From: Methanospirillum hungatei JF-1
GTDB taxonomy: Archaea; Halobacteriota; Methanomicrobia; Methanomicrobiales; Methanospirillaceae
NCBI RefSeq assembly: GCF_000013445.1
Contig: NC_007796.1
Span: 904,936-968,935, forward strand
Length of the DNA stretch: 64,000 nucleotides
Direction: 5' to 3'
This document shows, piece by piece, positions 38,792 through 45,321 of this stretch (the first letter of the stretch is position 1; every line of letters starts with the position of its first letter). A model generated the notes under the pieces. The model was not told the DNA's origin. It ran no database searches and saw only the letters and a list, made by a program, of their open reading frames with translations. The position numbers and the translations under genes were made by a program.

Positions 38792-38947
38792 CAGGTTTAA
38801 TTTTTTCTATATTTTTGAGTTCATCTTTTTTAGAAGGCACAGGTCACGCACATTTTATATTCATTACCGGAAAAGTAACAATATGGTTCAGTCATTCCAT
38901 TCTTGTTGGGTATACAGACTCTTTTTCAGCAGAATACAGGAGTTTAC

Positions 38948-40402
38948 ATGAATCAGCGATTTTGTATCGGGTTTGAAGTTCATCAGCCATATCGGCTTAA
39001 AAAAGGATTCAAACCTGATTTCGCGGACGGTCCGGATGATCCGATGGAGCGCTACTTCGATGACGCCAATAAAGAGATCCTGCTCCGGGTATGTGATAAA
39101 TGCTATGAACCGGCTACATCTATCATTCTTGATCAACTGGATGACGGTTTTTGCTGTGCATTCTCTCTCTCCGGAGTACTTATAGAACAGATGGAGAAAT
39201 GGGCACCTGATGTTCTTGATCTCTTCAGACAGGCGGCACAGCATAAAAATGTCGAGATGATCGGGCAGACCTATTTTCACAGCATCTCCAGCCTGTTCTG
39301 GACCATGGATGAATTCTGCAATCAGGTGAACCTCCATCGTGACCTCCTCAAAGACGTGTTCGGAGTAACTCCTCAGGTATTTGAAAATACAGAATTTCTC
39401 TTTGATAACCGGATTGCTGCCACGGTAAAAGATCTCGGGTTTAAAGCCTGCTTTACTGAAGGTGTAGATTATATACTTGAATGGCGAAGTCCGAATTACC
39501 TGTATCAGTGTGCCGGTCTACCGGTCATCATGCGCAATTTTAAACTTTCAGATGACATTGCGTTTCGGTTTACCTGCCGGGACTGGGAAGCCTGGCCACT
39601 GACTGCTGATCGGTATGCAAACTGGGTCTCACGAACTCCGGGTGATTTTGTACCGGTATTTATCGACTACGAGACCATCGGTGAACATTACTGGGTAGAG
39701 TCCGGAATCCATGAATTTTTCAGACATCTGGGTCCGGAGATGAGAAGATCAGAGGTCCAAATGGTAAAACCTTCAGATCTGTTATCCTTCCCGGTACATG
39801 ATGAATTTTCAATTCCTCTCCCCATCTCCTGGGCCGATGCCGAAAAGGATGGTACAGCCTGGATTGAAAACCGAAAACAGAAGAATGCATTCAGATCAGT
39901 GCAGCGTGCAGAATCATTCTGTAAAGATAAACATACCTGGCGGTGTATGCAGATTAGTGATCATTTCTACTATATGTCATGTAAACATGGATCGTGTGGA
40001 GAAGTCCATACCTACTTCAGTCATCAGCCGGAACATGAAGCATTTATTACCTATATGGATGTCCTGGCAGATTTTATCGAACGCTCCATACCCGAAATGG
40101 ACAAAAAGGAGTACCTCTATCCACTCCGTACCATTCCAATCGATAATGCCTTCTACTTCTCAAGTCCGGTCGGATACACCGGTCATGTCGCCTTTGATAT
40201 GGATCAGTTTGCCGATATGCTTCAGATTGTTCCATCAGACTCGATCACATATCACCATCAGAAAGGCGATTTTGCCAGCTGGTGTCGGAATGTCATAAAG
40301 GATGAGCCACTGGCACAGGCTATCGAAAAAGCCCGGAACCGGCAGGAACTGATACTGGCTGCAGATACCCGAAGACATGAATTATGGACCGCTTTAAAAT
40401 AA
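38948..40402 (+). CDS. GH57 family alpha-amylase-like enzyme
   Basis: A 484-residue glycoside hydrolase family 57 protein. Region 1 is GFEVHQPYR (His12), region 3 FENTEFLFDN puts the likely nucleophile at E149, and region 4 FIDYETIGEH the likely acid at D240. These intracellular enzymes degrade or rearrange alpha-glucans. No signal peptide. The ATG at 38948 is set by CAGGAG six bases upstream; an earlier ATG at 38903 lacks a site. With the GT4 gene 600 bases away and the debranching remnant it marks an archaeal glycogen cluster. Confidence 0.92.
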   Translation: MNQRFCIGFEVHQPYRLKKGFKPDFADGPDDPMERYFDDANKEILLRVCDKCYEPATSIILDQLDDGFCCAFSLSGVLIEQMEKWAPDVLDLFRQAAQHKNVEMIGQTYFHSISSLFWTMDEFCNQVNLHRDLLKDVFGVTPQVFENTEFLFDNRIAATVKDLGFKACFTEGVDYILEWRSPNYLYQCAGLPVIMRNFKLSDDIAFRFTCRDWEAWPLTADRYANWVSRTPGDFVPVFIDYETIGEHYWVESGIHEFFRHLGPEMRRSEVQMVKPSDLLSFPVHDEFSIPLPISWADAEKDGTAWIENRKQKNAFRSVQRAESFCKDKHTWRCMQISDHFYYMSCKHGSCGEVHTYFSHQPEHEAFITYMDVLADFIERSIPEMDKKEYLYPLRTIPIDNAFYFSSPVGYTGHVAFDMDQFADMLQIVPSDSITYHHQKGDFASWCRNVIKDEPLAQAIEKARNRQELILAADTRRHELWTALK

Positions 40403-41005
40403 TTTAAAATACCTTCTTTCCAAAAAATAAGGAAGATGGAAGGATCTGATAAGTCACCGTTCCATTCTCTCCATGGAGGGGGTAAGAGTAATTCTCTCTA
40501 TCCAGAATAAGCAATTCATTATTTATGTGGTTGAAGTAGGGTCACGTAAAACAATATATCGGAAATATTTAGGTTGGAGGATAGTAATGGGTACTTCCTT
40601 ACAGGTATCCTATTCTGAAAATATTCCTGCAGCTTGAATGATGCTTCTGAAGAGATGAATACCGGTCTGCCATTATAATTTGAATTTTTGAGCGCGGGAT
40701 GATGCTATCACTTTTTCCGACTTAATTTCCACCCGGACTGAAGGTTGTTATCTGTACAGGGGATGAAACGTGAGTAATTACATCTGAATATGCGGTACAA
40801 TCTCTGGTATAATCCGGCATATCGGATATATTTTTAATAGAAAGATCATCAATTCTTTGTATATGCGTAGTTTTCCGCTCGTGTTCTTGATGGACTTTTC
40901 AAAAAATTTCAAAAACACCGTTCATCCCGTGTTCATATTTCGTAATGCTCACCTGCTTACTGGAAAAATCACTTCATTCACCAAAAGACAGGATGGTGAT
41001 GTATC
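40403..41005. other. 603-base non-coding stretch inside the glycogen cluster
   Basis: No reading frame in it resembles a gene. It separates the amylase and glycosyltransferase genes, which are usually tightly linked in such clusters. It may hold the glycosyltransferase promoter (ATATATTTTTAATAG near 40826) and could be residue of lost DNA. I see no RNA gene or clear repeat. Confidence 0.5.
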
Positions 41006-42145
41006 ATGACCGGTCACCGCTTTAAAATAGCAATTTTCTGCTGGGAAAACCTGTACAGCGACCGGGTCGGTGGCCTTTCCAATGCCGCGACCTATCTTGC
41101 CCAGGCCCTTGCAAAGGATCATGAAGTCCATTTCTTCACCAGAGGCGATGAAGACTTTGAAATGAATAATGTATACTACCACGTCTACCGCCCGCATGGA
41201 AATAACATAGTTGAATACTGTGCAGACCTTTCAAGAGGTCTTGTTAACCGGTTTTATCAATATGATGACCCTGGTTTTGATATCCTTCATTTCCATGACT
41301 GGCATGTAACCGAAGCCCTGCATCTCCTCCAGGACCGGCCGACGGTATTCTCATTTCATTCAACAGAATACGGAAGAAATGGAAATGTTCACGGGGACTG
41401 GTGGGAGTACCATGAGATATGCAGCAAGGAATGGTATGCCAGCCTCATTGCCCGGCGGTGTATCATGGTATCATGGACACTCCGCAATGAAGTGCTTGAA
41501 CTCTATAAGACCGATCCAGGTAAGATCCATGTCATTCCGAACGGTGTCGTAAAAGAACAGTTTGACGTGAGCATTGATCCCGGTGCCATCAAAGCCCAGT
41601 ATGGTCTTCATTATATGACACCGCTCATCACCTACATCGGACGGATGGCATACCAGAAAGGCCCTGATATTCTCGTCGATGCAATACCCCTTATCCGGGA
41701 AAAGCACTGGAATGTCGCATTCATCCTTGCCGGCGGAGGAGGGATGCGTGACTGGCTTATAGAAAGGACAAAAGGATGGCCGGTTCAGCTTCCCGGGTTT
41801 ATATCAGATTCAGAGTATGTCAGACTCCTGCATGCCAGCGATATCGTTGTAATTCCAAGCAGGAATGAGCCATTTGGTATCATTCTTCTTGAAGCATGGA
41901 GTGCAAACCGGCCGGTTGTTGTCAGCAGGGTTGGAGGTCTTGCTGAAAATGTTGAGCATGGAGTAAATGGTCTTGTTGTGGACCCGAATCCGGAGGGAAT
42001 TGCATGGGGTGTCAATTACTATCTTGACAATCAGCATGATAGAATCAGATTAGCACGAGGTGGGTATAACCAGGTAGACCGGAGATTCTTCTGGGATTCA
42101 ATAAAAGATCAGGTGTTGTATGTGTACCGCGAAGCAATGCATTGA
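41006..42145 (+). CDS. GT4/GT5-type glycosyltransferase, likely glycogen synthase
   Basis: A 379-residue retaining glycosyltransferase. N-terminal VGGLSNAATYLAQALA binds the acceptor side; phosphate contacts are R213 and K218 in GRMAYQKG, and the EX7E pair is E288/E296 in EPFGIILLE. The fold is that of GT4, and position next to a GH57 amylase suggests alpha-glucan synthesis from a sugar nucleotide. A GGTGAT ribosome site lies just upstream of the ATG at 41006. The gene ends 131 bases before the debranching enzyme remnant. Confidence 0.9.
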   Translation: MTGHRFKIAIFCWENLYSDRVGGLSNAATYLAQALAKDHEVHFFTRGDEDFEMNNVYYHVYRPHGNNIVEYCADLSRGLVNRFYQYDDPGFDILHFHDWHVTEALHLLQDRPTVFSFHSTEYGRNGNVHGDWWEYHEICSKEWYASLIARRCIMVSWTLRNEVLELYKTDPGKIHVIPNGVVKEQFDVSIDPGAIKAQYGLHYMTPLITYIGRMAYQKGPDILVDAIPLIREKHWNVAFILAGGGGMRDWLIERTKGWPVQLPGFISDSEYVRLLHASDIVVIPSRNEPFGIILLEAWSANRPVVVSRVGGLAENVEHGVNGLVVDPNPEGIAWGVNYYLDNQHDRIRLARGGYNQVDRRFFWDSIKDQVLYVYREAMH

Positions 42146-42276
42146 ACATATCCTGCCGTATATAGATAAAGTCATTGACTGGCCATGGAACTGACGTTCA
42201 TCCCTCATACCATCAGATACGGATGAAAGCTTGCTAATCCCGCTATCGCATCGGCACGACTGAAATAACCAGCATG

Positions 42277-42720
42277 GAACATGATCTCATATCAGTCAGT
42301 CCGTGTTCAACCTGGATAGATACATCCATTACTCCACGGAAAGGAGACCGGTTGAAGTAAATACTCTCTGGGTACTGGCTCTTGAGGTGTGTGAGTACCT
42401 TGAGATAGGAGTCCCCGTCTTATCCAAACAGTAAGACGGTCCTTTTATTCTTTCTGGAATGAAGATGCCGGATGCATGTATGATGTCTGCGATCCTGATG
42501 ATGTATCCGAGACCAAACCTTATCGCCCTGGCTCATGGCCCGGTACATGGATGCACTCATACAATACGGTGAACAACCACGACAGATATCACGGGTATTG
42601 CAACCGCTCTGGCAGTACTTCCTGACCGATGGAATAGAAATACTTCCTGATACATTTGAAGGTTATTTTCAAATTGCTCCCAAGAGAGCCATTTGTTTGA
42701 CAGGGGTATTTCAGAATTAA
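42277..42720 (+). pseudogene. decayed C-terminal remnant of glycogen debranching enzyme
   Basis: Pieces of an amylo-alpha-1,6-glucosidase C-terminal catalytic domain occur in order but in different frames. Frame A from 42277 reads EHDLISVSPCSTWIDTSITPRKG; a shift near 42345 gives PVEVNTLWVLALEVCEYLE; then FWNEDAGCMYDVCDPDDVS in another frame; RPNLIALAHGP after a further shift; and finally YMDALIQYGEQ to LPDTFEGYF, ending at TAA 42718-42720. The normal enzyme has TPRxGxPVEVNALW, FWNxxxGxLYDVVDPDD and RPNQI, so at least three frameshifts and a stop (42430) are needed. The large N-terminal part is missing, as only 131 bases separate it from the GT4 stop. Confidence 0.85.
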
Positions 42721-42821
42721 TCAGAGGAAGAAATGCAATTCTTTCTTCAATTAACCCATTGGATGTCGAGTAACACCTTTCATTTATATGCGTTTTTCAC
42801 TTTCACCCTGTTTCCTTTACT

Positions 42822-42830
42822 CTTATATGG
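42822..42830 (+). promoter_or_regulatory. TATA-like box upstream of the RecA-like/PolB2 pair
   Basis: CTTATATGG lies about 30 bases before the ATG at 42855, the spacing of a leaderless archaeal promoter. A second similar box, TTTATATG, lies 40 bases further upstream at 42783. Together they would drive the two-gene unit. Not tested. Confidence 0.4.
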
Positions 42831-42854
42831 GGGATACCAGGATCCTGCTATGCC

Positions 42855-43352
42855 ATGTCAGTTCCTCTCCTATCACAGTTCTCAGTCTCTCAAGGTACAT
42901 TCACCGCTTTCATTGCACCAGTGGAGGATCTGACCCAAGCGCCCGGTTTATTTCTAAGAAAAGAACCAGGCCTTATTCTCTACCTGTGCGGTAATTATCC
43001 GGTGATCCTGCCTGACTTAACCCGGTATTCAGATCGGTTTGTTGTCAGAAGGGCTCTTACTGCCTTTCAGATCCTGACAATCCTGGATGAAGCATACCAG
43101 TCATTCCTTATCATTGAACATGATCGGTCGCTCTTTGAAGAACGTGCAGATCTTCTTCCCATCATCGGTCAACGGTGCAGGGAATATGCAATGAAAAATG
43201 CCGGAGTCCTTCTTCTTGCTCCCTATCCTGATATGTATATACAGGCACTTGAGCCATTTTTCCACCGGATATTCCTGGTTGATCATGTGCAGGGAGATAA
43301 AGTTGTAAAGAAAAAACGAACGAAATCAAAACAGATGTCCCTGGAGGTTTGA
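42855..43352 (+). CDS. RecA-fold-like protein without clear Walker A, partner of PolB2
   Basis: A 165-residue protein ending two bases before the PolB2 start. The sequence pattern SQGTFTAFIAP, then SFLIIEHDRSLFEERADLL, NAGVLLLAPYP and a basic end KKKRTKSKQ resembles a shrunken RadB/KaiC-type RecA fold: a strand with acidic end in place of Walker B, a helix, a vlll strand and a positively charged C-terminus. The GxxxxGKT loop is absent, so ATP binding is doubtful. I infer a structural partner of the polymerase, by analogy with ImuA. The family assignment is tentative; the coding call is good. Confidence 0.7.
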   Translation: MSVPLLSQFSVSQGTFTAFIAPVEDLTQAPGLFLRKEPGLILYLCGNYPVILPDLTRYSDRFVVRRALTAFQILTILDEAYQSFLIIEHDRSLFEERADLLPIIGQRCREYAMKNAGVLLLAPYPDMYIQALEPFFHRIFLVDHVQGDKVVKKKRTKSKQMSLEV

Positions 43353-43353
43353 G

Positions 43354-45321
43354 ATGACCAAATCAGACAGTTCATTCCTGTTGGATATTACCCGGACCAA
43401 AACCGGAGTGGATATCTGGGAGAAAACAGGTGGTCAGCTCTCCTGCACCCATCACTCCCTTGAGCAGGGTTTTCTTCTTTCTTTTCCGGATAGTCATCAG
43501 TTTTACCAGCTCCTAGATGGCCTTGCTGACGAATACCCCGTTACTCCATACCGGATTACCACCATTTACGGAGAAGAGGACGGATACCGGGTTCAGGCCG
43601 GGAGGGATGTTGCACAGAAGATAGAAGAACAGACCCTGTACCAGGCACGACTGTTTAACGTTGATATCAGGCCTGAACAGATCTTCTGCGCACACACAAA
43701 AAAGATAGTTGGAGGGTTTCAGGATGCAGATCGGTTCTCTCCTGATCAGAAAGCAGACCTTGATCTGATGGAGATTACCTGCCGGGAAAATCCTCACCGG
43801 AATCCCCATCCTGAACACATTACCATCATCACCAGCGCAAGGCAATGGATACTTGACGGGCCGGAGCGCACTATTGCAGAAGATCTCTTTACGATAATCC
43901 AGGATAAGGACCCGGATATCATACTTTTTCCTGATTATGACACATGGTCCGGAATTTTTTTTGGAATAGCCAGGGAGAATTATCTGTTTAATGCGTTCAG
44001 CAGAACCGGCAGGTTTCACACTGTTGCACCCAGATCCTATTTCAGCTATGGAAGAATGGAACACCGGCTTGGGGCGAAGATTCCTGAAGGCCGGATAATT
44101 ATTGACACCAAGCAGAGTTTCATGTACCGTGAAGGGGATCTCCGGGGAATTTTTCTTGCATCCAGGCTTGCCGGGCTTTCACCCAACCTTACCTGCAGGC
44201 TCACACCTGGCACACTGATCTCATCATATGAAGTATACGAAGCCCTTGCCCGGGGGTATGCAGTCCCTTTCCGGAAAAGTGATGCAGAGGCATGCAGAAG
44301 AGTCACGGCAATGAGACTTGATTACCGCGGAGGATACATACTTCAGCCTCCACCAGGTATATTTGCCGATGTTACCCAGATTGACTTTACCTCATTTTAT
44401 CCGTCCATAATCGTCAGTGAAAACCTCTCTCCGGAGACATTGAATGACCGGACAAAACCCGGATTTCTTTCATCAGTGTTGGAACCGGTCATTACGCTCC
44501 GACAACATACCAAGCAGATGAAAAAGACTGATCCATCCTATGCAGGGATGGACGGCGTATTAAAATGGATGCTGGTCACCTGTTTTGGTTATACCGGTTA
44601 TAAGAACGCCAGGTTTGGAAGAATCGAGGTCCACGAGGAGATTACCCGTGCCGCTACCCGGATATTGAAAGACTGTGTGAAACTTACCGAGGCCCATGGT
44701 GGAAAAGTTCTTCATGCAATCATCGACTGTCTGTTCATCAGGGGCGGTCATGCAGGAACCATCCAGGAAGAGATAGAACGGATGACAACCTTTCATACGG
44801 AGGCTGATACCTATGACTGGGTTGTTTTTCTTCCCCAGTCTGACGGGAGCGGGTCCTACTGCTCTTATTTCGGGCGGTTGAAAACCGGGAAGATGAAGGT
44901 GAAGGGAGTTTCTACAAACCGGAGGACCACTCCGCCCTATGTTGTCAGGATGCAGAATGAGATGTTTGATATACTTGGCACATACCAGGAAATTGATGGC
45001 ATCCCGGATGCACGGGACACCCTGTACTCTGTATACAGGCGGTACCTGGATACCATGAACCATGCAGATCTCAGGGATTTTATCATCACAAGGCGTATCG
45101 GGAAGCACACCTACAACAAACAATGCATTGCCCAGGCGGTTCTTGATACATATAAGGAGCATCATGTTACCATAGAGCCAGGTATGGATGCCTCATTCCT
45201 TGTCAGGGATGAGAAACGGCTCATAGTGGATCCTTCCTGGGACGCTCAGGGTATTGATACACGGTATTATAAAAGGCTCCTTGACAAGGCTTATGAAGAA
45301 GTGGTCTCTATGCTTCCCTGA
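43354..45321 (+). CDS. PolB2-type DNA polymerase family B, catalytic motifs altered
   Basis: A 655-residue family B DNA polymerase of reduced size. Motif A keeps D344 in DFTSFYPSII. Motif B, normally KxxxNSxYG, is KWMLVTCFG (404-412), followed by GYTGYKNARFG. Motif C, normally YGDTDS, is HAIIDC (454-459): the first aspartate is replaced by isoleucine 456 and only D458 remains. Exonuclease motifs are weak; an IIIDTKQ (248-254) is present but the DIET-type first motif is not. Archaeal PolB2 proteins were proposed to be inactivated. The ATG follows a GGAGGTTTGAG site, and the upstream partner gene stops two bases before. Confidence 0.9.
   Translation: MTKSDSSFLLDITRTKTGVDIWEKTGGQLSCTHHSLEQGFLLSFPDSHQFYQLLDGLADEYPVTPYRITTIYGEEDGYRVQAGRDVAQKIEEQTLYQARLFNVDIRPEQIFCAHTKKIVGGFQDADRFSPDQKADLDLMEITCRENPHRNPHPEHITIITSARQWILDGPERTIAEDLFTIIQDKDPDIILFPDYDTWSGIFFGIARENYLFNAFSRTGRFHTVAPRSYFSYGRMEHRLGAKIPEGRIIIDTKQSFMYREGDLRGIFLASRLAGLSPNLTCRLTPGTLISSYEVYEALARGYAVPFRKSDAEACRRVTAMRLDYRGGYILQPPPGIFADVTQIDFTSFYPSIIVSENLSPETLNDRTKPGFLSSVLEPVITLRQHTKQMKKTDPSYAGMDGVLKWMLVTCFGYTGYKNARFGRIEVHEEITRAATRILKDCVKLTEAHGGKVLHAIIDCLFIRGGHAGTIQEEIERMTTFHTEADTYDWVVFLPQSDGSGSYCSYFGRLKTGKMKVKGVSTNRRTTPPYVVRMQNEMFDILGTYQEIDGIPDARDTLYSVYRRYLDTMNHADLRDFIITRRIGKHTYNKQCIAQAVLDTYKEHHVTIEPGMDASFLVRDEKRLIVDPSWDAQGIDTRYYKRLLDKAYEEVVSMLP

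Follow-up and report, generated by a model that had tools for sequence, protein, structure and literature searches.

A glycogen debranching enzyme gene has very probably decayed beside a constrained GH57-GT4 gene pair in Methanospirillum hungatei JF-1

Results

The window analysed here is a stretch of 64,000 nucleotides from Methanospirillum hungatei JF-1 (NC_007796.1, positions 904,936 to 968,935). On its forward strand lie an intact GH57 alpha-amylase-like gene (38903-40402), an intact, glycogen-synthase-like GT4-type glycosyltransferase gene (41006-42145) and the remnant of a GH133-type glycogen debranching enzyme (GDE) gene of GDE_N-GDE_C type (42185-42773), the last delimited by DNA alignment to its orthologue in isolate M59, by tblastn and by a protein search of the organism's own genome. 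The GH57 protein passes the PF03065 cut-off (1.7e-66, 224.9 bits) and carries the HQP, GQ, NTE and DYET motifs, placing it in GH57 with a putative amylase or branching activity; a PDB search with it returned no match. The GT4 protein has a strong Pfam match and falls below the cut-offs of both GlgA profiles (129 of 302 bits for TIGR02149, 78 of 328 bits for TIGR02095), and thus is not assigned to GlgA, but it may work like a synthase. A stretch of 229 bp between GH57 and GT4 in JF-1 (40424-40652), single-copy in the genome, corresponds to 6 bp in M59. Downstream of the remnant, a conserved 165-aa ORF with no Pfam or NCBIfam match (42855-43352) precedes a family B DNA polymerase gene (43354-45321). 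At the matching place in the related genome G171 (L034, between 8878 and 9046) the polymerase gene is missing, and the 165-aa ORF is followed by the response regulator gene.

The nearest intact GDE gene was found in G177, a MAG named "Methanospirillum hungatei isolate M59", and encodes a protein of 575 aa. This protein passes the Pfam cut-offs for GDE_C (PF06202; 7.1e-77, 259 bits) and GDE_N (PF12439; 3.9e-14, 53 bits), and in its C-terminal half it aligns with structures of eukaryotic GDE. Given that it scores 193 bits against TIGR01561 (gde_arch), under the curated 364-bit cut-off, it is a divergent member of the archaeal and bacterial GDE family (GH133; PF12439 plus PF06202), whereas what JF-1 retains no longer codes for the protein. 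Gene order in M59 is that of JF-1, namely GH57, GT4, GDE, the 165-aa ORF, the family B DNA polymerase, a response regulator and a transporter, and DNA identity is about 93.4% over 17 kb, on both sides of the gaps, with two breaks within the GDE gene.

When aligned to the M59 gene of 1,728 bp, the JF-1 remnant amounts to 589 bp on the forward strand. It opens at 42185, where the start codon would be, and closes with the counterpart of the stop codon at 42771-42773. The two genes differ by seven deletions and no insertions; the smaller deletions span 1 to 3 bp, and two large ones about 967 and about 164 bp. The 5' piece (42185-42257) covers codons 1-24, codon 14 being a premature TGA, and is followed by the deletion of about 967 bp; the middle piece (42258-42524), which corresponds to about codons 347-439 of M59, is split over three frames because of small deletions and ends at the deletion of about 164 bp; and the 3' piece (42525-42773), about codons 494-576, has one further small deletion. 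The large deletions took out most of GDE_N, the start of GDE_C and a segment closer to the C-terminus. In 11 intact orthologues 114 residues are invariant, and of these the remnant retains 32, has lost 70 through deletion and differs at 12. With these deletions, frame changes and the premature stop, no single open frame spans GDE_N and GDE_C, and the remnant is therefore not a working member of GH133.

Both homology and position trace the remnant to an intact GDE_N-GDE_C gene, since the M59 orthologue is syntenic and tblastn with it recovers the pieces in the correct order at 77-90% identity, far above chance (linked E = 4.6e-31 and 1.0e-25); residues 1-25 alone match the 5' piece at 80% identity. 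The original prediction had read a debranching enzyme pseudogene from the motifs TPRKG, PVEVNTLW, FWNEDAGCMYDV, PDD, RPNLIALA and LPDTFEG, and a three-frame translation of 42140-42860 shows them in just that order across three forward frames broken by stops. Its placement of the feature at 42277-42720 does fall on the remnant but was too narrow, missing the 5' piece and the last codons. It had also described the gene cluster as otherwise intact. The GH57 and GT4 genes are indeed open and constrained, but a second, distinct GT4 gene that several congeners carry is missing from both JF-1 and M59. In G149, G167 and G171 (L031, L033 and L034) and in several other genera, this gene separates GT4 from GDE, and it is absent from JF-1, M59, G182 and G163. 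The GH57 orthologue of G163 (L055) is recorded with one in-frame TGA.

In the GDE of C. glabrata the catalytic acid pair is Asp1241/Glu1492, and mutation of Glu1492 abolishes debranching (PMC4837477). Judged by motifs, M59 has the Asp in TWMD and the Glu in LPE, while JF-1 retains the Asp and, in its 3' piece, has Asp in place of the Glu. The Glu of the conserved LPE motif is the predicted catalytic base and probably corresponds to Glu1492, the mapping of TWMD and LPE onto the C. glabrata numbering being drawn from partial alignments rather than from a structure.

The remnant has also lost codon constraint relative to its intact orthologue, as expected of a pseudogene. The comparison was polarised with G182 as the sole outgroup to JF-1 and a single MAG, M59. 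JF-1-specific substitutions at codon positions 1/2/3 number 16/8/7 for the remnant, 1/0/19 for GH57 and 3/1/14 for GT4. On the JF-1 lineage, nonsynonymous and synonymous changes stand at 27:4 in the remnant versus 23:81 in five flanking genes (Fisher p = 7e-11). Lineage-specific changes in the remnant number 31 in JF-1 versus 6 in M59, while those in the neighbours are balanced (104 vs 114). Given this asymmetry and the contrast in nonsynonymous to synonymous changes, the GDE gene decayed once the JF-1 branch had separated from M59. Over that branch GH57 and GT4 remained under constraint, although part of the branch may predate the loss, so that constraint after the loss is not separable. The GDE gene tree matches the GH57 plus GT4 tree within the genus (FastTree). 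Horizontal replacement of GDE in M59 is disfavoured, as the GDE tree joins M59 with G182 (support 0.93), just as GH57 plus GT4 predicts.

No intact copy lies elsewhere in the JF-1 genome: a search with GDE_C (PF06202) gave no match at E <= 0.001, and the M59 GDE protein matched this locus only, in five pieces. Searches of the genome likewise found no GH13, GH15 or GT3 enzymes, leaving no candidate for debranching through GH13 or GH15. JF-1 does encode a single alpha-glucan phosphorylase (archaeal/DUF3417 type), one GH77 glucanotransferase and, adjoining the GH77 gene, a second GH57 protein, which is 850 aa long and contains a DUF3536 domain (L073 891-3443; genome about 638.9-641.4 kb). It is likely that all alpha-1,6 activity has been lost in JF-1.

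Across 199 genomes of the order, GDE_C gave 28 matches (27 strong, 1 weak), including six other Methanospirillum genomes, in all of which the gene is uninterrupted. Every one of the 27 genomes in the sample whose GDE is clear has a GH57 orthologue (at least 40% identity), an association with p = 3e-20 before any correction for relatedness. GDE is absent from 23 of the 50 genomes with a GH57 orthologue, JF-1 included and some of them being incomplete, and GT4 directly follows GH57 in 14 inspected GDE-less loci outside the genus as well as in L072, whose genome has its GDE elsewhere. These GDE-less loci and co-occurrence counts indicate that GDE is an accessory to a GH57-GT4 core. No convincing GDE remnant was found beside GH57-GT4 in the 15 inspected loci outside the genus, the sole marginal match (E = 0.009, in L062) falling on that locus's GT4 gene.

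Within the genus, a second GDE remnant lies directly after GT4 in another Methanospirillum species, G197 (84% complete; L059 8284-8442). There, codons 1-24 run straight into a part that begins near codon 498 (tblastn E 2.9e-4), and the remnant has stops of its own; 13 of the 24 residues are identical, compared with 9 in the best of 300 shuffles. Because G197 branches outside JF-1 plus M59 in the tree, and M59 is intact, independent loss in the two is the simplest account. The first breakpoints of the two remnants lie no more than about 2 bp apart, for which a deletion hotspot and chance are both possible.

Discussion

A debranching enzyme gene that decayed on the JF-1 branch and is now a pseudogene is the best explanation of these findings, and we hold it with high confidence. 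The JF-1 case is an ordinary, recent and lineage-specific pseudogenisation, repeated in genus and order; since the debranching route is dispensable in many relatives, its loss is unremarkable. Purifying selection on GH57 and GT4 along the JF-1 branch shows, at the level of constraint, that the pair has a function for which GDE is not required.

What the pair does may be approached through better-known loci. In Sulfolobus acidocaldarius, amyA and glgA are required for glycogen, and deletion of glgX led to 38.5-fold more glycogen in stationary phase (PMC8158581); its alpha-amylase belongs to GH57 and its glgX is assigned to GH133 in a 2024 review (PMC11046441). As in JF-1, an alpha-amylase gene there adjoins a synthase gene with GH133 nearby (amyA-glgA, glgC-gaa-glgX; PMC8158581). 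JF-1 differs in having a GT4 instead of a characterised GlgA, in having no GH15 and in that its debranching gene is dead. Among Euryarchaeota, Picrophilus torridus has a GT4-GH133-GH57 cluster and Methanoculleus bourgensis a GT4 next to glgB/GH57 (PMC11046441). As in JF-1, genes of these families are neighbours there with no GT3 or GT5 synthase; no pseudogene is mentioned for either, whereas JF-1 has lost GDE and is without the second GT4. The same review poses the question of whether the missing branching enzyme could be the GH57 amylase (PMC11046441), and when genomes of Methanomicrobiales were compared in 2009, M. hungatei had a phosphorylase while no glycogen synthase could be identified (PMC2686161).

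By analogy with amyA-glgA of Sulfolobus, the GH57-GT4 pair would make or remodel an intracellular alpha-glucan, which JF-1 would break down with its alpha-glucan phosphorylase and GH77 enzyme, leaving the stubs of alpha-1,6 branches uncleaved; alternatively, its polymer may carry few branches. Glucan breakdown would then be slower or incomplete, or the polymer sparsely branched. We give this functional proposal, built by analogy, roughly even chances. With no GT3 synthase in JF-1 and a GT4 below the GlgA cut-offs, glycogen is a presumptive product of the pair, and the literature searched held no glycogen measurement for M. hungatei.

It is conceivable, though on balance unlikely, that the pair makes some other glycan or glycoconjugate and that GDE had a separate purpose. 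GT4 is a broad family, the window GT4, a predicted glycogen-synthase-like enzyme, lies under the GlgA cut-offs and could act on another acceptor, and the pair occurs without GDE in the GDE-less loci inspected. However, the presence of a GH57 orthologue in every sampled genome with a clear GDE ties GDE to the pair, bearing in mind that this association is uncorrected for relatedness, and the GT4 beside GH57 in Methanoculleus has been suggested to be an uncharacterised glycogen synthase (PMC11046441).

Rather unlikely, too, is that debranching was taken over by another enzyme, such as the second GH57 or the window GH57. Some GH57 enzymes are amylopullulanases (PMC11046441), and the second GH57, encoded next to GH77, might itself act on alpha-1,6 bonds; debranching would then persist. 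However, our search for a solved or named relative of this DUF3536 protein found none, and relatives lacking GDE are common, so no substitute is needed.

Two further readings concern the remnant itself. That it still encodes a short functional peptide or RNA is highly improbable: its retained invariant residues might speak for a residual role, but the remnant region holds no open frame of at least 80 aa, and the JF-1-specific substitutions show no third-position bias. That a sequencing or assembly error broke a really intact gene is practically negligible, as several of the breaks are single-base deletions of the kind typical of such errors but base-calling cannot account for the two large deletions, the nonsense mutation and the 31 JF-1-specific substitutions at all three codon positions, and the flanking genes are clean in the same assembly, a finished single contig of 3,544,738 bp.

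Returning to the decayed gene and the constrained pair beside it, a bolder reading, which we regard as doubtful, is that GH57-GT4 in Methanomicrobiales is an uncharacterised alpha-glucan synthesis module operating without an alpha-1,6-debranching enzyme. JF-1 would then be a natural knock-out with a polymer that is only partly degradable, and perhaps structural or protective instead of a store.

JF-1 and M59, 93% identical across the locus, offer a clean comparison with and without the debranching enzyme. The two genomes make the role of GT4 and GH57 approachable, as well as the question of how glycogen is built in Methanomicrobiales without a recognised synthase. In addition, taking JF-1 as the type genome for the pathway content of the genus would lead to the false conclusion that Methanospirillum lacks a GH133 debranching enzyme.
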